From Membranipora membranacea (Eukaryota; Bryozoa; Gymnolaemata; Cheilostomatida; Membraniporidae): a stretch of DNA of 64,000 nt. Position numbers and translations under genes: made by a program. Below, one piece after another: positions 42,480-60,120 of the stretch. A model generated the notes under the pieces. The model was not told the origin of the DNA. It worked only from the letters and a program-made list of their open reading frames with translations, and did not search any database. The stretch covers positions 40,300,001-40,364,000 of the forward strand of contig OU612065.1 in the NCBI GenBank assembly GCA_914767715.1. The letters are read 5' to 3'. Each line of letters opens with the position of its first letter. The stretch's first letter is position 1.

Positions 42480-44365
42480 GTAATCATGCTGCTATATTAT
42501 TGGAGGTAGGAATGAAAATTGTTACCTTGAAAATCTGTGTACATGCATTGTCATAAAATCTAGGAGTAGATCTAACTTCTAAGTTCTAAATGAAATCAGC
42601 AACAGCATCCATCCAAGGAGTTTACTCCTTGATCCATCATCAGTCATTCTCATCAGGACAGAAACTTGGGCGACATCAATGAACTCCCTTCATTGGCGAC
42701 ATGGCCTAACATCCATTGTGTCAAATCAGAAATATTTACTTACTTATTCATATACCTATCTAGTGACTTATTTTAAGAGACTGTTCTATGAGGTTTGGCT
42801 TGGATGTAGCTGTAGGGGAGTATTTCCGTTTGAAGGCGATCGGCAAAGTTTTCCACACACATTGGGAGTTTATCTTCAATTTTCTCATTTTTCTGTTATA
42901 TGATTGCCTTTGTACCAGACCACTAAGCATGCCAGTTTTGCCTGAAAATAAGTTAATTTGTTCCATGGATTTATTTTTTACTTGTACTTTGATTATATTG
43001 CTTTTGGAATCAGAAAAGGCTATTTATGTTGTGTCTGGTACTCAATGAGACCTGAAATTACTAGGAGTAGATGAATGGAGTGCTGAATTATGTTTGGTCC
43101 GTCTGTATTATTGTTACTGGCCACTAAGCACTAACATTTTAACAAGACCAATAATCCAGAACCATACTAGGAGTTGTCTATTTAAAAACAAAGAGGACCC
43201 AACTCCTAAAATTTCACCTCTTGCCCGACAATCAATAAAATTTATCAGTTATGTACAGGACACTTTTTTGTCAACTGCAGCGGTTCTGATGTATCCAAAA
43301 CCACCAGTCTTTAGTAAACATTAAATATAAGCGATTGGTTGGTTGTTTGGACAGATTTGTACCATAAAACGTTGTAATACAGTCACTAAACTTACCAATG
43401 CAGGTGAAATGATGAACGTATACTTGGCTTACACCAGAATCATGTTTTCTTGTTTGTTGACCATAAATAGTGACTTGGAAGTGTATAGATTGATCACTAA
43501 GGTTATGTCTTTGAAACAGTTCATGAGTTGGTTGCAGGCGTGTGGTGACTCATAAGTGTGGGGTCACTTTAAAATGTGTATAAAATTATTTTTGAAAACG
43601 GCAATTCACTGATAAGTCTAGGTTTTATGGTATGTTTGCTCATCTGCCCACTATGTAGGAACAAGCAGGTGCTTAAAATAAATTGATATCGAATTGAGTA
43701 CATGCGTCATTAAATCAAAGTTTTATGTTTCATAAGCTGTCAATAGAGACTCAGGTTTTTGACCTATCTATTTTTCCTGAATTGATGTTATTGAAATCTT
43801 TGTACTTTTTATCGCGTGTCATCTTTAAAGGGTAGTTTCCCTATGGTATATGTCGAATGGGATCTGAAAATATTCATTAATATAATTTGGTTTCTGCACT
43901 TCTTTCATCCCATTGTGCGTCCATTGTACAACGTACAACTGATTTTAAATTATTACTTTTACTCCAAGTTTTCATTTCCGATCCGATCAACTTGACACCA
44001 GATAAACTGGAAATATGAAATTATATAAAACTTCTGCTGCTTACTCCATGGAATATTTATTACCACAATTGCAGTGAAGATTCTTGTCCATGAAATGTCG
44101 ATAACTCAACACTGAGTGAAAAAAAAGTACCTGCACAGCACTTCAGGAAAACTCACCTCAGCAGGAGTGACAAGCTGAACGCTAACCTGGGCACAACTTG
44201 ACATTTACTCAGACAAACAACCATTGATTCTCTACACCAATCAGAGACGTTCAATCTTATACTAGCGTTACAGAGGCACCTTGTGCTAAACTTCGATAGA
44301 ATATGTAAACTGGTGTCCACAATATTTACAGGAATACTGACTAAATATAACATTAACTTACAGCA
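42480..44365. other. intergenic region without recognisable genes
   Basis: Several short ORFs occur on both strands (for example 42788-43048 +, 43094-43324 +), but none shows a domain, signal peptide or splice context that I can support. The sequence is AT-rich and unique by eye. Confidence 0.4.
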
Positions 44366-44872
44366 ATGGAAAATGAAACTAACTGGAAAATCTATAAAGT
44401 GGCTTTACCAGTTGAGTTAGCGGCAGTGACCCTAGTTATTAACACTTGTATCCTGCTTAGTTATGTAATGGTTATACTGACTTTTAGGTTTAGAAGATTG
44501 AAACTACAGCATATTTACATGCTCGGACTGGTTGCAGTTGCAGGTGATCTAATGATACTAATAGGGAATATAAGCGTAGCTGTGATACATATTAGAGGCG
44601 AGGTGAGGCTCAATGCCTGGCACTGTGACCTCATAGGGTTAACCTCCACGATGGCAGCTAACATGAACGCTCTCACCCACACCGCTATGTCTGTAGACAG
44701 ATGGGCCTCTGTCCAGTTTCCCACCAAGTACTTCTCTATTAGAGCAAAAAAGACAACATGATTAATAGTTCCAGCTTTCATAATCGGGTCCTGTTTACTC
44801 CCTGCAGTTTTAACGGTTTTGTTCCTCAAACTAAATCTTGTAGGTACTTATTTCGATCCTTATATTCCTTAC

Positions 44873-45092
44873 TGTAACTTACGAGATGGCAGTAGAGGGC
44901 TGAAGGCTTTACTCATATATCCTGTATTATTTATTGTTATACCTGTAACTTACGGGATGGCAGTAGAGGGCTGAAGGCTTTACTCATATATCCTGTATAA
45001 TTTATTGTTATACCTGTAACTTACGGGATGGCAGTAGCCAGTAGAGGGCTGAAGGCTTTACTCATATATCCTGTATTATTTATTGTGATACC
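44873..45092 (+). repeat. 71-bp tandem triplication within receptor TM5 region
   Basis: TGTAACTTACGRGATGGCAG begins units at 44873, 44944 and 45015. The third carries an extra 7 bp (AGCCAGT). Since 71 is not a multiple of 3, each extra copy shifts the frame of the receptor remnant. Near identity of the copies suggests a recent event. Confidence 0.85.
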
Positions 45093-45148
45093 TGTAACTC
45101 TGCAGGCGATAACTAACACTTCTACATTGTGTAATGTATCTTAGTTAA

Positions 45149-45838: not shown

Positions 45839-46232
45839 GGGCTCCTGTCGGGGTATGGCTCCTGTCGGGGTATGGCTCCTGTCGGGGTATGGCTCCTGTC
45901 GGGGTATGGCTCCTGTCGGGGTATGGCTCCTGTCGGGGTATGGCTCCTGTCGGGGTATGGCTCCTGTCGGGGTATGGCTCCTGTCGGGGTAGGGCTCCTG
46001 TCGGGGTATGGCTCCTGTCGGGGTATGGCTCCTGTCGGGGTATGGCTCCTGTCGGGGTATGGCTCCTGTCGGGGTATGGCTCCTGTCGGGGTATGGCTCC
46101 TGTCGGGGTATGGCTCCTGTCGGGGTATGGCTCCAGTCGGGGTATGGCTCCTGTCGGGGTATGGCTCATGTCGGGGTATGGCTCATGCCGGGGTATGGCT
46201 CCTGTCGGGGTATGGCTCCTGTCGGGGTATGG
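45839..46232 (+). repeat. 17-bp minisatellite within the receptor remnant, about 23 copies
   Basis: The unit GGGGTATGGCTCCTGTC is repeated almost without variation. Rare variants are TAGGG, CCAGTC, CATGTC and CATGCC. Because 17 is prime to 3, three units (51 bp) encode a 17-residue peptide unit (APVGVWLLSGYGSCRGM) in every forward frame, and the minus strand is also open. It begins inside the codons for the TM6 CWAP motif. Confidence 0.95.
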
Positions 46233-46409
46233 CTCATGTGGAGAATGATATCAGGCTCCTCTCCCTCCCCCTCCCCACACGGACACTTTGCAGTGCAGGT
46301 GTTAGTAGCTAATAGTGGTATGAGTTTTCCTATCTATGTGCTCACACTGCCGACATTTAGAGATCATTTTTCATCCATGATTGGTTGCAGGGATCCTGTG
46401 CATAGATGA

Positions 46410-48629: not shown

Positions 48630-50055
48630 TTGACTAGATTTATAATAAATGAATCAAGCTATTCGATTGAGCAGTTTTACACATAATGAGCGAAAACAGT
48701 ATTTACGGCAGTTTAAACGGTAGGCTGGCACTCTGTATCTACCAGATGGGAGTTGTTCTAGCGTTATGACAGTGTCTTTGCCCGAAGCGAACATTCTCAG
48801 GCATTTAGTTTTGAAGTACTTATCGAATATATCGTCTATGGTTGTAACTTCAAGCCTGCCTTTGCTTAGTCTACGTGCTGTGTTGATGAGGTGATTGTAC
48901 TGGTTCTTAATATCAGATGAGAGGTGTCCGTATATAATACATAGGTGATATTGTAGGACACTTTCGAGAAATGAGGTGCATGCCAGCTTAACGGTAGTTG
49001 TCTTGACATTCATAAAGGCTAGCTGCTTCATGATGAATAGTCGTTTGTTAGCTTTGCTGATGATGTTTTTGGTGTTCGTATTGAAGTTAAGCTTATGATT
49101 GAGTGTGGTGCCAAGATATTTGTATTCATCTACTCATTCGATGGCGGAGTTGTTGATCATGATGGGTGGAGGGTCAGGATCATCGCGTAGATTACAGAAA
49201 ACAAGCTCTTTGGTTTTCTTTGTGTTGATGAGCAGACTGTTTCTTGCGCACCATGATCTGATATTAACGATTTCAACTTGCAGTGATGATGGTGATTTTG
49301 GCGAGATGAATTCTAATATCACAGTGTCATCGGCGTATTTTATGATGGTGTGATCATCGCTTACTGCCATGTCGTCTACATAAAGTGAGAAGAGGATGGG
49401 ACTGAGGACACATCCCTGAGGGCATCCAGTTGATGTTATGATGCTGTTAGATAGAGTATTACCTACTTTCACTCGCTGTGTACGTGATGACAGAAAGTTA
49501 TATGACCAGGATACGATGTTGGGGTTTACTTTATGAGATGACATCTTTTGGACTAGGGTGTTACTGTTGATTGTATTAAAAGCACTGCTAAAGTCAATGA
49601 AAATCGAGTGTACATAATTCTTTGCAGAGCTATCGAGATGATTAGTGATTTTGTCAAGTAACAACAATAGTGCATCGTCTGTACTGCTGTTACGTTTATA
49701 GGCAAACTGGTTACTATCGGCAATGTGAGCACTGATGTGGGGCGCTACAAGTTTCTCAAGACACTTAGCGAGGATTGGTGTCAGGGCGATGGGCCTAAAG
49801 TCTTTAGGTTCTGTTGCGCCTTTCAGTTTAGGTAAAGGCACTATTTTTGGCAGCTTTCCAAATATCGGGCACAGTGGCACTTTGTAGCGAGATATTGAAC
49901 AAAGTACACATAGGAGCAACTATACAATCTGCTAATGTTCTTATCATCCGTGCCGATATTCCATCAGGGCCACTACTTTTACCAACGTCTACGTTCCTGA
50001 ACACATTGTACACATCACGCAAGGATTTAGAGTGAATCTCACTCATTTTCCCCAT
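48630..50055 (-). mobile_element. 5'-truncated CR1/Jockey-like LINE, reverse transcriptase region
   Basis: Minus-strand ORF pieces 50055-49828, 49919-49134 and 49031-48654 encode RT from the fingers onward: GKSSGPDGISARMIRTLADC, PKLKGATEPKDFRPIAL, FIDFSSAFNTINSNTL, TGCPQGCVLSPILFSLYVDD, the catalytic KYADDTVILEF box, and the C-terminal tail (FLESVLQYHLCIIYGHLS). One frameshift occurs near 49830-49920 and a break near 49032-49134. No endonuclease is present. It is related to, but clearly diverged from, the copy at 3-5.8 kb. Its coding start overlaps the right inverted arm. Confidence 0.85.
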
Positions 50056-51465: not shown

Positions 51466-54400
51466 TCACTGTTTCTCTGAGGCTCTCGTACTAATTCTGG
51501 CACGCTTAGCTGGAGTTGTATCCCCACTACCCGAAGCTCCAGCTGAAGCTGAGGGGACAACTACTATATTCTTAGATCCCGGAGTGCCCCCATCACTAGT
51601 GACTACTGTCATAGCTGACTTAGTCTTAGTCATCGATGTCTTCACACCATACAGGTGGTCTGTCTTTATTTCTGTCATCTCCAAAAGCTAAAAATAAAAT
51701 AACAATATTAAATTTAGAGGACTTACAATTGTACAGGTATAATCAATAATATACAATGACTGCTCAAGTGATGTCATAATGCCGCCATACACACCAGACG
51801 TCTCCTACTGTGGATGTCTTGCTCACACTTAAGAGCTTCGAACCTTCAACTCAGGACTTTATTGGGTTTGATTTTAGGTTCTTTGACAATATCAGGATTA
51901 CAATAAAATGCATGTTATACAATATTATTTCTCACCAATCAGAGCCTATGGTTTAGATATTCACAAACATTACATGTAAATTTATATTATTGTTGAGTTA
52001 AATTTGAGAAATCAAGCTTGCCCTTTCATTCAAATTATGATGATCAACGCAGAATGACAACATTTTAATTAAAGTCATCATTAATATGTCAATGCTGACA
52101 CTCTCTCCTTTGAGTTACCCTAAATTCTTGTATTGCCCCGCATCTCGGGTAGTGAAATTAAACTTGAGCAAATAATGCTAGGCTTTATCATACTTTCCCA
52201 TTTGTCCTTATTTGAATGATCTAATAAGCCATGTTAAAATAATAAGTAACATTATGTTATGAAGTGATCATCATGTTACTAAGCGGTACACAATGACTTA
52301 CTGACCTCGCCCATGACAGCGATGGGTGTCTGTTGTGTAGCTGCTGCTACTCTATGCTCTACCAGGTAGAATATATACTCATCATACAACAGTCTGATCA
52401 GGTGGAAGGAGCCAAACGAGGCAGCGCTTCTCAGGGTGAGATCACGAATTATCATCGAACTAAAATAAGAAATAATATCATAGTTATGATAGAGTTATTA
52501 CCGAGCATAGACCTAGAGGCACAGACACATCAGTGTCAGTTGCCAGTCATCATAATATGGTGACAGGAGTAACATCAGTTGCACATGTATAAGCCAAACC
52601 TCCACAACCATAAACTAGGGTTGGTATAGACCAAACTGATAGTGTATGACTATGTCCATTGTAGCTTATTAACTGGACCTTATTGACAACAAGAATTAAA
52701 CCCTGTCGCTTTGTCATATGATTCTCTGCTGCAGAAATATTTTATATGAAACGATCTATGATGTTCAATGCAAACTCATTATTCAAATATTTTCAATTTC
52801 ATAACCTTAACAGAATTTGCAAAATGTTATAATTTTGTGTTTAAATTTGGAGCCAGGTCAGCAAATTATAATACAGCGATGATAAAGTAACAGATAAATA
52901 ACCAGTAGTAGTAATAATGATGATGATATTACCTGTAGAAGGACCATTTGAGGAGGAATTGTCTGGCAGCTTTAGTAAAGTTATCAGTATCCTGGTAGGG
53001 TTTGAGTACCTGATTAACCACCGTCTCCAGCCAGGTGCTCCACTCCTCCAGACTGTGCTGCTCCTGTAAAAACTTCTTAAAATCTTTCTCAAGCTGTGTG
53101 ACTAGAGTATCTTCACATTGACAGACCCACGACGCCTGCTCCTGTAATATAATATAATATAATATGTATATATATGAGCTCCGCAGCTAATGTAAGACTA
53201 TGTATGCCACATTCCAGTAGACAATGGCTCTATTTATAGATGTTTAATTACCCATATCAGACTAGTGACTGTAAAGATAGAGATTTTACAGAAACTTAAA
53301 CATTTTAATTTCAATCTTGTTTTAATCTGTAAAAAAATTATCTACAGCTAAGATTTCCAGGCACGTCAAAAACTTATAATGTTATAAAACCGGCAGAGAG
53401 CTACATTTATATCAGCGAAATCTGTTAAGAGGTGTGAAAATAGAAAATGAGGCGTATCTTAATAGCTGCTGAGGTGGGCTTATGGTACTCTATCTACCTT
53501 TGATCTTAATCTGACCATGTCTAAATTACTCTAAAATCGTGTCAAGATTGCTTCCTGCTCAAATTAATCTGAATAGATCGCTGCTAAATTTCAAGCTTGA
53601 CTGCGACTCTTTTTGTTGCTATGTACATAAGAATTTGTCAATTATAACCTAGATAGTAGCAGGCACGCGCTGATTTACTGCGTTGCTATGGCGATTTGAT
53701 GACCCACTACAACCATTCTTCTATGGAAGCCATGGACAGAGGAGAACTGCTGCCTTGGCAACTTTAGCAGAACGATGACAAATGAATCTTGAGAACATGA
53801 TCATTTCAGTGCAAAGTTATTTAGGGCCTTCAAAGCCCGGAACATAATTTTAAAAATGTGATCATTATAAAAATGTGATTACTCAAAAATTTTACAACAC
53901 TTGACAGTTTCTCAATGAAGCCAACAAAGATCCTCATAGGAGTCAAATAGCAGTTCAACTGTCATCGGTTTTACGCATGGGTACGGTTTCCTGTGAGTAT
54001 TAACAATAGTTTCAGATTTTTTTTACGAATTTTATACCAGATTCACACATACTCCAATGAGCCTTACCTGGACGTTCGCGAAGTCGACTCTGTTAAGATC
54101 GGATAACATCTGACCGATCTGAGTGGAGTTTTGTAGCACTGCTCTTGCTGCCTGTGCCAGGTGATTTAGTGATGTATATCGTCGAAGTGTCTGTGAAAAA
54201 GCGCTCACTGCTCCGATCTATATCAGAATTAAAAATTCTTAAAACAGCAATACATGAAACAGCATCACCTATATTTCACTCCGCATCAACCTAATTTCGT
54301 ACTCTCAATCTTTTGAACTTTATTTTCAAGACACTAATTGATATGCGAACATTTCAAGAGACCAGAAAAAAAAACACAGCAAAAATTATTCATTGCGGCA

Positions 54401-56142
54401 ACATGCACATTATTTTTTACTTGCTACCATACACTTAATACATTCACAGCAAATTGAAACACATGGAGGAAATTGTCTCACGCCACAACCATTGAAATTA
54501 CGCATGTAAGGAAATCAAAGAGTTCTTCAAGAAGTCACACATAAAATTCATCACACTTATATGTTCTACAAAAGGAAAGACAACAGCTCAATTTTGTATC
54601 TCAAGTTTTTTACCTTAACAGTAATCATAGCCTCTGGTATACCGCCGATAGCTGATCGTAGAGAAGTCTCCAATCCTTTAGCAAAGTTACGGATTGTCTG
54701 TGTTAGGGAGCCTGAAATGAGAGGATGGTGATTTATTACTAATACAAGAAGAAGTACATCTCAGTTCAAATTTTTTCTCATGGTGCCAGCGATTTTTACT
54801 CACATTGACTAAGGCTATTTTGAAAGCTCTCAAATACTCACTATGATGTAAATAATTAAACAGCTTTTGCATTCAAACTTGGCTGCACCACAACAATACA
54901 TTTATTGTTTTTGTACATAATAAGTGAGGCAATGTATTAAACTATAAAAAGACAGAAATTACATACAACAATGTAACATCAACTTTATTTATCAGCTTTA
55001 TTAAGTCACGATTGCCACATTTGACCATGAGAAAAATATACGACAATTGAGGTGAATTCAATTATCTGTATTTTTTTCTACAACTTATTATGAATTCAAT
55101 TTTACCATTTGCACAGAACACAGTAATAAATGACCATAACTATACTTACTTGGTATAGGCCTGAGTACATCGGGCACCAGGACCTCTACTAAAGCCTGAT
55201 AGAAGCTGTAATCAGCCTCCTTAACAAACTCCTGAACCTCCGGTACCTCCGCTAGCTTCAGTAACTTCTCTTTTGATAATTTAGACTCCATCGTAGTGTC
55301 CGTACTGTAAGAGGTATAATTTATGATTCATTCATCTGTGATAAAATTTTTCATCACATTTAAGATGGGTTATAGATGAAAAAACATTATTAGACATTTT
55401 TTTTCATCACTTAATGATCTTAAATATTATTATTCCAGGTGATAGAATATTAGCATGTATTATTATTATTACTCATCAATTTACAAAATATTATTGTGTT
55501 GAGCTAAAAATAGCGCAATGCTCACCTGACTGAGCTTTTCCTCCAGAACGTTTGCCATAAATTCTCTATTAGGTTAAAATGAAGATTCACAACCAAATCT
55601 AGTATTGCCTGAAAAACAAGACATTATTTTACAGGTAGATTACTGGTGCAATACTCGCTCCTCCTATAAGAGGGGAACTGGAAATTAGAACTGTCATATT
55701 TTCTAATGTTGATTCATTGTAATGAATTCAGGAAGCAGGATTGTTGGAAAGCTATTTACAATTTGATACAATTTTTAAAAGAAAATATAACTTAGACCAA
55801 CTTACTTCACAGTGCTCTTTGTACAAAGTGTCGAACATATTGACGTCATTTATATTAATTCCCTGAGGCAGATTTTTGCTGTCGATACTCAAGTCAACTT
55901 GAGGAATGGCATCGTGAGGTGTGCCCAGAAACTGTCTATGCTGGCCTGAATCTGAGGCACCTGAAGCTGAGTCAGGTTTGGGGGTGCCACCCTCCGCCCC
56001 ACCATCACTTCCAGCTTTGACTATACGGCGCTGAGGCTGGGTTGCCTGCCTCATGGCTACTGGCGTATCATCTGGGACTAGCTGATTCAACGGACTGTCG
56101 GCTTTTATTCTGATGCCATAATAGTGATATTTCGAGTTTCCT
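51466..56142 (-). CDS. RFX exons after the DBD: wing, B/C and dimerisation regions, tail
   Basis: Exon 56142-55806 completes the wing ([20 protein letters not shown]) and ends LYKEHCE. Later exons encode [142 protein letters not shown] and [20 protein letters not shown], all in the order found in RFX1-3. All phases agree to the stop at 51466-51468. Confidence 0.9.
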
Positions 56143-59100
56143 CTGTAAAAATCAAACTTACAGTTGGCCAAAAACCGACACATAGCGTAAAGAATGCAAT
56201 AAAATTACACAGCAATACAAATTATTGTTATGTTTAAGCCACATGTCAGAGTAAAAGTGAGCTGTGAGAGTAATAAAATGTAGCTTAGCAAATGTACATA
56301 AGTTATGTGTGTACTGTACATATTCCACCTGTTCTTATGAACTGTACTGCACCGCCGCAAATAGAACCAAATTGAGAGTCTCGAGCTGGAACAACGACAA
56401 CAACGAGGAACAACAGCAGCAAAGCACCACTAAACCAGGAACACAACTATCATCTCGGCGCGCTGACGGTCGTTTTATAAATAGCTGGTAGCATATCATC
56501 CATGTGAGTGAATGAGATTCCTCTATCTCTTGTAATCTATAACTAAAACTTGTTAGCAAGCAGCCCTAGAGCAGTGTAATCTGTAATCTCCCTGTTATAG
56601 AGCGATCTCCCCCCCCCCCCTCGGTGTGATGTTATGGAGCAATCTCTCCCTTTGTGAGGTTATCTCAGAGCAGCACAGCAGCCTGTCTCCCCGCCGATCA
56701 GCTGATTGATTTACCTAGTGCCGAGTCTCCTAGTTCTCAAACCGACGAAAACAGACCTGATCAGTTTACCAAAGCTAGCTGGGTTCATCGGATCCAGCTT
56801 AGATTCCTGACAATGATGCATGTAGTGACAGTAAAGAGTGGAGCGTGGCAGGCTCACACCCTCAGCTGCATCATAGTTAGCGAGTAACCACTGCACCTGC
56901 AACAATTAAACAATGGTGTAGCATCATGATGTGGGGCTAACTATTACTTTACCTTTGACCAAGTCTTCGGGTCTTCAAGTCTCTGAAAATAGTTCTGACT
57001 AGTTTTCCGAACGAAGCCGGATTAGATGGTTCGATCTTCTCTGTGTTACAGTGATGTATGTAAAAGTTGTAGAGCGTACAGCGAGGTAAACTTGTTCCTT
57101 CACAGCTTTCAAAGTTAGCGAGCAGCCATTGTACCTGTTTGTAAGATTTCAATAATGTTATATGATTATTGGACAAAATTATTCAAATAGGTTTTTCTCA
57201 TAGACCTACTAATAATGAACTTATTATTAGTAGGTCTATGGTTTTTCCTTTTTCGGTAAAATTGCAATAAGATTTTTCCTCTTATTTTCGTCTTTCAATG
57301 TTGCGTTGATTTCCTTGACTGTTTTCATCTTGTCAAATCGGACAAGGATACGTTAAGCGATATAAAGCCTGGCGATTTGTTTTCTGTTACAAGAATACAG
57401 AAGGAGTGGGTTGTGGATTTTGATGGCAGTTGAATATGAGGCAACGGTCCCCACCTCAGATAGGTGTGCCGCATGCATAATACATACATGTCTAATTATT
57501 AGAATTGTTAAAAATGCCCCACTCGCAAAAACTCATCATAGTAGATAATCACAAAGATAACAGCAAATGTTCCGTTTTTTGTTAACATGATAGGCAAAAC
57601 AATTCTTAGAAATGATCAAATATATTAAAAGTTCACAAATCCTTTGGTTAGGTCAAATACAGCGTCATGTTTTATTTACCAAGCAAGGACATTCCTCCAC
57701 CGCATCACAAAGCGCGACGAGAGCAGCAAGAGAAATAAACAGAAAATAAAGATTACCGTTCGATTGTCAAAACTCACAGTAGCTGGGGCAGCCCGGGTGG
57801 TATGTGCTAGTGGATAGCCTTCGCCGTCCATCGTGCCCCCGTGTATCAGGTAGGTGTGACCACCCATCTGTTGTACCATCTGTCCCTGAAAACCCAGCTA
57901 CAAAATAAGTACGGGGGTTTGATAATGTGACAGAGACAGCTTTCAACACGGTGACTACCAGTGGATATAGAGCACATTCAGCACATTATATACACCAAGC
58001 AATAAGTGTCAGCACAAGTACTAAACAAAACATGCCCGTAACATGTCTGAGAGGAGTAGGTGAAAAGTATGTGAGCAAGTAAGACATTGTTATCTACCGG
58101 GAAATCTGTCTCATATTATTATTACATTACAGTTTACGCTATACCCAATTATAACAAGAGGACAACTCCTTAGTCAATCCATTAATGATATAAGTGCGGC
58201 ACACATTTCAAATTAATGTATATTTTATAGGTAACAGAAACCTCAGTATCAATGTCACCGCACTCAGAGCATATGTATACATTAGTATGATAGGATTATT
58301 TACCTGTTGACCAGTCTGGTAGCCATGATAAGTATTATTAGGTGAATACCCACTCTGACCATAATCCTGATATTGTCTACAAAATGAATCCAAATATATA
58401 AGTAAGAACATGACTGTGTGAACTTAATCCTATAGTGATGATAGGTTTGTAAAGATTAAAAACACCTGGAGCAAACATTAGTGGGCCTACACTACTAAAC
58501 ACTGTTGCCTTTGCTGTTCTTTAGCACACCAGTGAATTGAAATTTGTAAATATTTAGATAACTATCCTTTTGTCCTATATGTCTCAGTAGTACTCCCATA
58601 CTATTGATAGTACATAATATAATCTAGAAAGGACAAGCTTGTAATCTGCACTTTTCCTCATATGTGGCTAGATAATCCTTCCCACCATAAGTGAATGTTT
58701 TGGTAGTGTTCGGTTAACTGTGATTGGTGCGGCTATGATTCATAACCTTAGGCCATTATTCACCCCATCGCCACAACATATTACTCAAGATACAAATCTC
58801 AGCTATTATTAGTGACACTGATACAGTAAGCGTGTCCCTGTGACATTACAGCTCTAACCAGCAGGAAAACCTTTCATAATGAAGGCCATTGAACACATAA
58901 ATTGTACATGAATTATTCAACAGACACATTAACATTTCTACCCGCACAGTACTGTAGCTGATACCGAGAAAAAAAACAAGTTATCATTCTTACATATTTG
59001 AGGCAGGTTGTCCGTTAGAGTAGACTATCTGTTCTTGTGTAGGTGTAGCTCTGTTTATAGTATCCACATATTGTATAGGATAGACTGTTTGTCCTGCGCT

Positions 59101-60120
59101 TGTGTGGTCACCACTTTGGTTGCCTGTATTACCTCCATTACCAGAGAGCGCTAGAAAATGATGCATAGAGTTGTGAGCGGAGGCAGCGGGATGTTGATGA
59201 TGATAATATCCATGATTCATGCTACTATCTCTAGCGGTTAAATGCATTAAGCCAGTAGCAGAGAGTGTGTCCTAAAACTAACTCGATTCCTATCCTCTGA
59301 AACTGCTGTCCTGCTGTCGTATCAGTGAGTGTTCAAAGTGCTTCTATGATGGTGAGATTTAGTTAATGAAGATAAAGCATGAATAATTCCGCTTTAAGAT
59401 GCAACCAGAATGTAAATAAAGTAGCTTGTTGCCAGACTTTTTGTTTCATGAAATTCTAATCCGTTTGCCAGCAGAGCACAATCCCATGTGATCGGTGTGA
59501 ACAACATTAGTCATTTAAACGGTTATATCAATCAGAGATATGGAGAGATCAATCACGCCATGCATGGCTGGATTTAAACAACAACCTGATCGGTTTGACT
59601 TGATGGTAATCATATTCATTATGTCACTGCATTGGTCAGAGGATCACAGTGGAGATCTGTACTCACAAACTATCCACACAGCTGGGTACCCACACACTCT
59701 GTTATTAAATCTATTATCAACAGTATTTAAAAAAAGAACTTTCAGCCAATAATGATTCATCAAGATAGAGACAGGGTACTGTGGTGTAGAGCATTTTAAG
59801 ATTTCCTGGTCCTGATTCTTGACTTACACAATATAATAACATGGTCAATATTAGAATAATCAATGAGAGAAATAATAGAGACAAAATCAGCATACATTTC
59901 ACCATGATTAGCTCTAATAATTAATTTACCTGTGACGATGTATTGCTGACTACCAGCGGTGGCTGCTGGCTGTATGATTGTGGTTCCTTTACTCTGTGTG
60001 ACTACAAACTGCTGGCCTGTGCTCATATCTCCAGATACAACGATAGTCTTCTTCTGACCAGCCGCCGGAGAAGCCGCTGCAGCTGTAGCCATTGTGTCTC
60101 TTATCTCAGCTATCAACTCT
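51466..60120 (-). CDS. RFX1/2/3-type winged-helix transcription factor with duplicated DBD exon
   Basis: Exons on the minus strand, in order: 60120?-59930 (ATG 60092), 59271-58994, 58376-58304, 57885-57778, then either 57134-56953 or 56896-56715, then 56142-55806, 55608-55526, 55304-55150, 54711-54614, 54217-54068, 53141-52933, 52459-52306 and 51687-51466 (stop). From the first in-frame ATG of the second exon (59247) the spliced frame is 2025 bp (674 residues) with either DBD exon. Domains: Gln/Thr/Gly-rich N-terminus, RFX DNA-binding domain, then the family's B, C and dimerisation regions. RFX1-3 proteins bind X-box promoters and drive ciliary genes. The phase between the first two exons does not match, so a small exon is missing or they belong to alternative starts. 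The C-terminal acidic tail of vertebrate RFX2/3 is replaced by a short Ser/Gly/Lys tail ending RASEKQ. Confidence 0.88.
53682..53762. promoter_or_regulatory. two X-box-like RFX sites in an RFX intron
   Basis: GTTGCTATGGCGAT (53682-53695) fits RYYNYYATRRNRAC at 13 of 14 positions. GCTGCCTTGGCAAC (53749-53762) also fits at 13 of 14. Both are in the intron between the exons 54217-54068 and 53141-52933. Function is inferred from the motif only. Confidence 0.4.
56715..56896 (-). CDS. RFX DNA-binding-domain exon, copy b (canonical)
   Basis: This 182-bp exon is bounded by GTTGCAG and GTAAAT and encodes [38 protein letters not shown] and [20 protein letters not shown]. It is almost identical in form to vertebrate RFX1/2 DBDs. 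It has the same length and phases as the copy 57 bp upstream in the transcript (56953), so it is interchangeable with it. The following exon supplies [10 protein letters not shown] to complete the wing. Confidence 0.92.
56953..57134 (-). CDS. RFX DNA-binding-domain exon, copy a (divergent)
   Basis: This 182-bp exon is bounded by AAACAG at its 5' side and GTAAAG at its 3' side. It encodes [38 protein letters not shown] and [20 protein letters not shown], i.e. most of the RFX winged-helix domain, entering in phase 0 and leaving in phase 2. Compared with the neighbouring copy about 38 of 60 residues are identical. Structural residues ([23 protein letters not shown]) are kept. Differences cluster in the middle helix ([15 protein letters not shown]) and just before the wing ([11 protein letters not shown]). 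No stop or frameshift is present. Confidence 0.88.
57199..57240. repeat. perfect hairpin, 18-bp arms, 6-nt loop
   Basis: CATAGACCTACTAATAAT (57199-57216) and its exact complement (57223-57240) flank GAACTT. In the RFX pre-mRNA the hairpin lies about 65-105 nt upstream of the acceptor of DBD exon copy a. Confidence 0.95.
57778..60120 (-). CDS. RFX exons 1-4: N-terminal transactivation-type region
   Basis: Exon 1 encodes [20 protein letters not shown] followed by [20 protein letters not shown]. Exon 2 encodes a His/Ser/Gly-rich stretch and [20 protein letters not shown], which parallels the QVQYVEGSDTVYTNG-type segment of vertebrate RFX. Exon 3 encodes [20 protein letters not shown]. Exon 4 encodes [20 protein letters not shown] and ends HTTRAAPAT, exactly the segment that precedes the DBD (HTTRASPAT) in RFX1-3. 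Exons 2-4 agree in phase. The exon 1-2 join is off by one phase (phase 1 into phase 0). Confidence 0.75.

Follow-up and report, generated by a model that had tools for sequence, protein, structure and literature searches.

Does the bryozoan Membranipora membranacea switch, by alternative splicing, between two versions of the DNA-binding domain of a single RFX transcription factor? The question is raised by a 64,000-nucleotide stretch of its genome (contig OU612065.1, positions 40,300,001 to 40,364,000; hereafter the window, numbered from its first letter), in which exon 5 of an RFX1/2/3 gene is present twice, in tandem. The two copies, A and B, very probably form a mutually exclusive pair, both members of which have been kept by purifying selection since before the cheilostome genera Membranipora, Watersipora and Bugula split. 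Splicing would pick either A or B between exons E4 and E6. Tandem, interchangeable DNA-binding exons had been predicted at this locus in an earlier note on the DNA, and the prediction is supported by the exon anatomy, by purifying selection and by records from relatives carrying A or B.

The pair and its spacer lie on the minus strand as follows.

56953..57134, minus strand: exon A (alternative 5A), 60 winged-helix residues of a derived type (R51, D52, Q60 and others)
56897..56952, minus strand: A-B spacer, 56 bp, gtaaag...ttgcag, between the A donor and the B acceptor
56715..56896, minus strand: exon B (alternative 5B), 60 winged-helix residues of the canonical RFX1/2/3 type

As the earlier note had described, both exons (57134-56953 and 56896-56715) are intact and 182 bp long, carry no in-frame stop, are bounded by AG acceptors and GT donors, and are entered in phase 0 and left in phase 2. 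Each encodes the same part of the winged helix, namely helices 1-3 and the first wing strand, and matches the Pfam RFX DNA-binding domain PF02257 (A, 78.3 bits; B, 82.0 bits; cut-off 27). The two products share exactly 38 of 60 residues, where about 38 had been claimed, and differ at 22 positions; the DNA is identical at 109 of 182 bases, with 41, 45 and 21 of 60 identities at codon positions 1, 2 and 3, respectively. Chance similarity was rejected, because among 127,636 six-frame positions of the window the best match to the 60 residues of B was A (38) and the runner-up reached only 15/60. The reading frame stays open to the end of the gene model with A alone or B alone, and early stops were found with both exons or with neither, just as had been proposed. 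The pair thus shows features of mutually exclusive exons: the exons are adjacent, similar and equal in length and phase, and their joint inclusion or skipping shifts the frame.

The gene carrying the pair is identified by sequence as the M. membranacea ortholog of animal RFX1/2/3. It was modelled on the minus strand with 13 coding positions, from 60092 to 51466, position 5 being present twice. The A form of the whole protein scored 108.9 bits for the RFX DNA-binding domain and 377 bits for PF25340 BCD_RFX (cut-off 24). The remaining parts of the model are listed below.

59930..60092, minus strand: E1, first coding exon (ends QYIVT), supported by the open reading frame, splice sites and likeness to the N-terminus of the Watersipora ortholog
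58994..59123, minus strand: E2 coding exon, supported by frame, splice sites and likeness to Watersipora, with the weakest acceptor of the model
58304..58376, minus strand: E3 coding exon
57778..57897, minus strand: E4 coding exon to its first donor (HTTRAAPAT, then gtgagt)
57757..57777, minus strand: 21-nt in-frame extension of E4, encoding VSFDNRT, to the second donor (ACG, then gtaatc)
55806..56142, minus strand: E6, completing the wing after A or B
55526..55608, minus strand: E7 coding exon, RFX BCD domain region
55150..55304, minus strand: E8 coding exon
54614..54711, minus strand: E9 coding exon
54068..54217, minus strand: E10 coding exon
52933..53141, minus strand: E11 coding exon
52306..52459, minus strand: E12 coding exon
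51466..51687, minus strand: E13, last coding exon, with a C-terminus resembling Watersipora record P0003

The predicted protein has 691 residues with either exon, or 698 with the farther E4 donor, rather than the 674 given in the earlier note. The E4 donor had been placed at 57778; however, the heptapeptide VSFDNRT, located just before the DNA-binding domain, is unchanged in the gene-1 proteins of both Watersipora and Bugula, so the donor at 57757 is probably the one most used. The same heptapeptide is absent from the gene-2 proteins P0004, P0005 and P0228 (see below).

Both exon versions recur in relatives. A search with the A-form protein gave 989 matches, of which the best 120 were examined; the top three were bryozoan. 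Watersipora P0003 is an ortholog of the window gene (gene 1) with an A exon, identical to window A at 55/60 residues and to the rest of the protein at 383/486 (the 40 residues before exon 5 and everything after it). Conversely, the gene-1 ortholog of Bugula, P0119 (partial, 392 residues), has a B exon, with 51/60 identities to window B and 250/308 over the rest. A second gene, whose exon 5 is of the A type, is represented by P0005 from Watersipora and P0004 from Bugula. Gene 1 thus has A on record for Watersipora, B for Bugula and both in the Membranipora genome, which disfavours a decaying copy.

The second gene is also present in M. membranacea. A Pfam scan of its genome (339,339,785 bases in 18 contigs) yielded 7 RFX-domain matches, comprising the two window exons, an A-type exon on C2, RFX4/6-like matches on C4 and at C1:1.03 Mb (two), and an RFX5/7-like match on C8, with the subfamily labels assigned by eye. 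The paralogue, gene 2 (chromosome 2, C2:17096001-17115000), has the same exon borders as gene 1 and an A-type exon alone. A hidden B copy was ruled out over the 19 kb read, where the best match to B was the A-type exon itself and the next had an E value of 0.53. P0228, recovered in a fragment search (best 120 of 368 matches), is 115/115 identical to this A-only paralogue across three joined exons. Its source label, 'merc', is one that we take to denote a marine eukaryote metatranscriptome catalogue; if so, the paralogue is transcribed and spliced. The fragment search also gave P0284, an A-type piece with the exon-5 residues of Bugula P0004 followed by other sequence, and five pieces that lack exon 5 but have E6 sequence like that of bryozoan gene 1 (P0231, P0250, P0279, P0292 and P0293).

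To place the exons in time, trees with and without exon 5 were compared. The tree without exon 5 (27 rows; the outgroup rows are all of RFX1/2/3 type, with RFX4-7 not among the rivals) places the gene with RFX1/2/3 of other animals, and its bryozoan gene 2 (100/100) and gene 1 (100/99) clades are sisters on one branch of bryozoan proteins (100/99). Within these rows, the gene duplication is thus specific to bryozoans. An Owenia row, P0167, was left out of the tree because of a pattern mismatch. In the tree of the exon only, all A exons form one clade (100/100), including window A, that of the Watersipora gene-1 protein and three paralogue-2 exons, and window B groups with Bugula B (89/79) among ordinary RFX proteins. 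Within the A clade, the gene-1 exons (87/76, which is below the starred level of support) separate from the gene-2 exons (97/88). It follows that A is at least as old as the gene split, unless it was transferred around the time of that split.

Selection was assessed from the proportions of synonymous and nonsynonymous differences (pS/pN), which were 0.86/0.27 between A and B, 0.97/0.14 between A and the paralogue's A, and 0.76/0.32 between B and the paralogue's A. Synonymous sites are saturated and nonsynonymous change is low. By the residue identities with Watersipora and Bugula given above, A is clearly constrained and B is about as constrained as the rest of the protein. When an unconstrained copy was simulated by substitution only, at the observed base change of 40%, none of 5000 copies kept 38/60 identities. 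The low pN, the simulated copies and the conservation in Watersipora and Bugula all disfavour decay, in agreement with the earlier note, which had argued against a dead copy.

How the choice between A and B might be made is suggested by the intron context. The 56-bp spacer is shorter than all 24 other introns of genes 1 and 2, which measure 197-926 bp in gene 1 (n=12, B form) and approximately 122-572 bp in gene 2 (n=12, with approximate boundaries). In a survey of human exons, a distance of <50 bp between donor and branchpoint was regarded as potential steric interference, and loss of the frame when both exons are included as a further safeguard (PMC5740500). A usual branchpoint in the spacer would lie <50 bp from the A donor, so that steric exclusion of A-B joining is plausible. 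Joining of A to B would thus be disfavoured by the 56-bp intron, and transcripts with both exons or neither would lose the frame; the use of both exons in one animal and the steric block are the steps of this mechanism that we infer. The acceptor of A has 9 pyrimidines in 18 positions and that of B 12, with all others except E2 having 11-15; by a rough score built from about 12 sites, the A acceptor (-1.37) ranks close to those of E8 and E9 and higher than that of E2. Since the A acceptor is pyrimidine-poor, our guess would be that B is the default and A the regulated form.

Two further observations concern the introns around the pair. In the predicted RNA fold, the first part of the A-B spacer is paired with a stretch preceding the B acceptor, and the intron before exon A carries the following feature.

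57199..57240, no strand: inverted repeat in the intron preceding exon A, with perfect 18-bp arms and a 6-nt loop

This repeat lies 64 nt from the A acceptor, and the region including it has an RNA fold z of -2.9; it may derive from a mobile element or act in splicing.

To define what distinguishes A, the segments encoded by exon 5 were compared among 347 RFX records. The signature V46, T/M48, R51, D52 and Q60 is complete in 4 of 162 distinct segments (the first and second Watersipora genes, the second Bugula gene and P0228), whereas 6 have one or two of these residues and 152 have none; as the positions were picked after comparing A with B, the count is descriptive. The 48 records that gave no segment were left out of the segment counts, and all were then read: one is A-type (P0284), five are the E6-only pieces, two are the window exons themselves, and the remainder have canonical-type segments, cut starts or changed wings. 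So far, A is known from bryozoans only, and the chromosome 2 paralogue carries it alone.

The changes in A spare those DNA-facing basic residues that could be placed. Basic residues that are invariant in 22 aligned RFX proteins (R18, K44, R47, R56, R57 and wing residues) are kept in the A-type proteins. A study of mammalian RFX proteins describes nine residues that touch DNA, the first being Lys rather than Arg in RFX5/7 and the third Lys in RFX7 (PMC2533330). From the RFX5 alignment and the RFX4/6-like exons, we infer that the first contact is R18 of the exon. The third contact is presumably R47, judging from the RFX7 sequence. Both R18 and R47 are retained in A, and because these and the other invariant basic residues are kept, A probably still binds DNA. 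The predicted structure of the A-type domain of P0228 has helices and wing in the RFX order, with a mean predicted local distance difference test score (pLDDT) of 76.7, reaching ~90 over the helices and 72-78 at the wing start. Among solved structures, it most resembles RFX1 bound to X-box DNA (1dp7, E 9.2e-10); a 1dp7 match also supports the RFX-type domain of the window gene. The changes in A adjoin the contact surface (turn 51-54 and wing residue 60) and sit in helix 2, which suggests that A may alter affinity, site preference or partner contacts. Binding to X-box DNA would thus be modified, possibly in half-site preference, and not abolished. A change of target specificity by A is conceivable, although the DNA-facing basic residues placed here are unchanged.

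Several points weigh against a functional, mutually exclusive pair. Splicing of A and B is deduced from DNA and protein records. Of the pair that the earlier note had proposed to seek in related genomes, each member was found in protein records, but none of those examined carries both exons from one gene, Watersipora showing A only and Bugula B only, in a partial protein. The Watersipora evidence for gene 1 is one member sequence, with no second gene-1 record among the best 120 of 3593 matches to the B form, and P0003 may come from gene prediction and not from a sequenced transcript; transcript alignments were the main source of the Ensembl annotation described for the Watersipora genome (PMC12902671). 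The exon tree was built from 60 columns (28 rows), and B is slightly better conserved than the rest of the protein (85% versus 81%). The lack of stops is weak evidence by itself, as 12% of the simulated unconstrained copies were stop-free at 40% change. Finally, the pyrimidine-poor acceptor of A means that A could be rare, although this is weak either way. The one-version records and the pyrimidine-poor A acceptor would fit a gene in which a single copy is included constitutively, its partner being a remnant of exon duplication that is dead or seldom used. Nevertheless, such a relic is very unlikely, because both copies have kept their splice sites and are free of stops, A and B resemble their Watersipora and Bugula counterparts at 55/60 and 51/60 residues, against 383/486 and 250/308 over the rest of the protein, and no simulated unconstrained copy retained the observed identity. 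An assembly artefact, or two joined haplotypes, was rejected as wholly improbable: the short spacing is all that speaks for it, whereas A and B differ at 40% of their bases and both versions occur, with similar flanks, in orthologous genes of other genera.

The origin and the effect of A leave more room for alternatives. Exon A might have entered the gene from the A-type paralogue, by gene conversion or exon copying, instead of arising by tandem exon duplication before the genes split. The paralogue does carry an A-type exon with the same borders, and the A exons cluster in a single clade whichever gene they come from; yet within that clade window A groups with the gene-1 A of Watersipora, apart from the paralogue-2 exons, so that a transfer, if one took place, would date from around the gene split. 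We consider a transfer unlikely, and the present function would be unaffected either way. A different objection is that A is spliced in but binds DNA poorly, producing a dominant-negative RFX that dimerises without strong X-box binding, so that the exon choice would be an on/off switch. Such a role would fit the changes of G52 to D and T60 to Q, which are rare and near the wing, and human RFX4 and RFX8 isoforms without the domain have been reported (PMC5838959). However, the invariant basic residues are kept in the A-type proteins, and the second gene has only A, which makes a dominant-negative A, like a transfer, improbable. A switch between two DNA-binding versions of the domain thus remains the preferred reading.

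To assess whether RFX domains vary in this way elsewhere, we searched for pairs of records that appear to derive from one gene and differ in the domain region. The scan covered 209 of the 347 proteins (those with both anchors present), drawn from the best 120 rows per search, and gave 46 pairs, 40 from amphioxus, differing in the wing, and 6 with P0118, a bird model marked low quality; outside amphioxus, none was found among the 209 proteins except the pairs with P0118. The amphioxus RFX1/2/3 records (Branchiostoma hybrids, P0205-P0227) have the same exon-5 product and the same following sequence but two wing versions, GNSKYHYYG in 5 of the 13 records read and GSSKYHYYG in 8. An identical contig size is given for both versions, and the records come from two hybrid crosses. 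Judging from the protein records, the two versions look like alternative wing exons. The comparison of exon-5 segments in five animal groups had given one segment each, with only 3 of 10 amphioxus records yielding one; the remaining 7 share the exon-5 product and differ in the wing. Like the bryozoan pair, the amphioxus records offer alternative versions within the DNA-binding domain of an RFX1/2/3 protein, but it is the wing that varies, not helices 1-3, and the variation is known there from protein records. In view of these wings, alternative exons for the RFX DNA-binding domain may have evolved on more than one occasion and may not be unique to bryozoans.

The bryozoan gene otherwise resembles animal RFX1/2/3 in having the RFX DNA-binding and BCD domains, with exon B supplying the canonical domain. 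The device has parallels in other transcription factors. The forkhead domain is a winged helix. In FOXP1, mutually exclusive exons 18 and 18b (FOXP1-ES) alter the DNA-binding domain and the bound motif (PMC11701043). FOXP1 is thus a winged-helix factor with mutually exclusive DNA-binding exons, although of the forkhead family and from vertebrates, whereas in the bryozoan gene the exon choice affects helices 1-3 and the first wing strand, and a change in binding is here a prediction. TCF3/E2A likewise has two alternative DNA-binding-domain exons, 18a and 18b (E12/E47), giving slightly different basic helix-loop-helix (bHLH) domains with a reported difference in DNA affinity (PMC12585103); it belongs to the bHLH family, and the bryozoan RFX in addition has a paralogous gene with one version. 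The human catalogue of Hatje et al. 2017 (PMC5740500) contains neighbouring similar exons of like length and frame with frame-shift and steric safeguards; its exons were validated by splice-junction reads, whereas the bryozoan pair is predicted from sequence. Human RFX isoforms either start at different sites or lack the domain (PMC5838959). In the open-licence PMC literature, exon switching of the RFX domain was not found in the titles and abstract starts of the matches listed, and a search for RFX with bryozoans listed two papers on cnidarians. The claim of the earlier note that no RFX gene with switchable DNA-binding exons has been described thus stands for the literature found, but amphioxus protein records carry alternative wings. 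What would be new here is a known splicing device in the RFX family, on which no paper was found, together with a paralogue fixed for one state.

Other features of the window lie outside the RFX gene. An open frame for a reverse transcriptase (49134-49919, minus strand; RVT_1, 108.3 bits), possibly from an element without long terminal repeats (non-LTR), is located downstream of the gene. Farther on are an open frame for a rhodopsin-type seven-transmembrane (7TM) receptor (44357-44761, plus strand; Pfam 7tm_1, 31.7 bits, cut-off 30.5), followed by a 71-bp tandem repeat with 3.1 copies (44872-45099), and a 17-bp tandem repeat with 23.5 copies and 97% matches (45840-46239), which is crossed by long open frames on both strands.

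In many animals, cilium genes are under the control of RFX1/2/3 proteins, whose DNA-binding domain shows strong conservation. Bryozoan feeding and larval movement depend on cilia. A splice-switchable domain, together with a one-state paralogue, would be a natural experiment on how such a domain can change without losing its role, and the finding ties the duplication of an exon to that of a whole gene later on, in a phylum that has received little study. Tentatively, and with less confidence than we place in the exon pair itself, it may be proposed that an early bryozoan RFX gene gained A by exon duplication, so that splicing could switch this master regulator of cilia between two DNA-recognition states, and that a later gene duplication froze A in the second gene, with the first retaining the switch. 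If this is true, bryozoans would have a canonical and a derived RFX programme and, together with the amphioxus wings, the near-invariant RFX domain would have become splice-switchable repeatedly.
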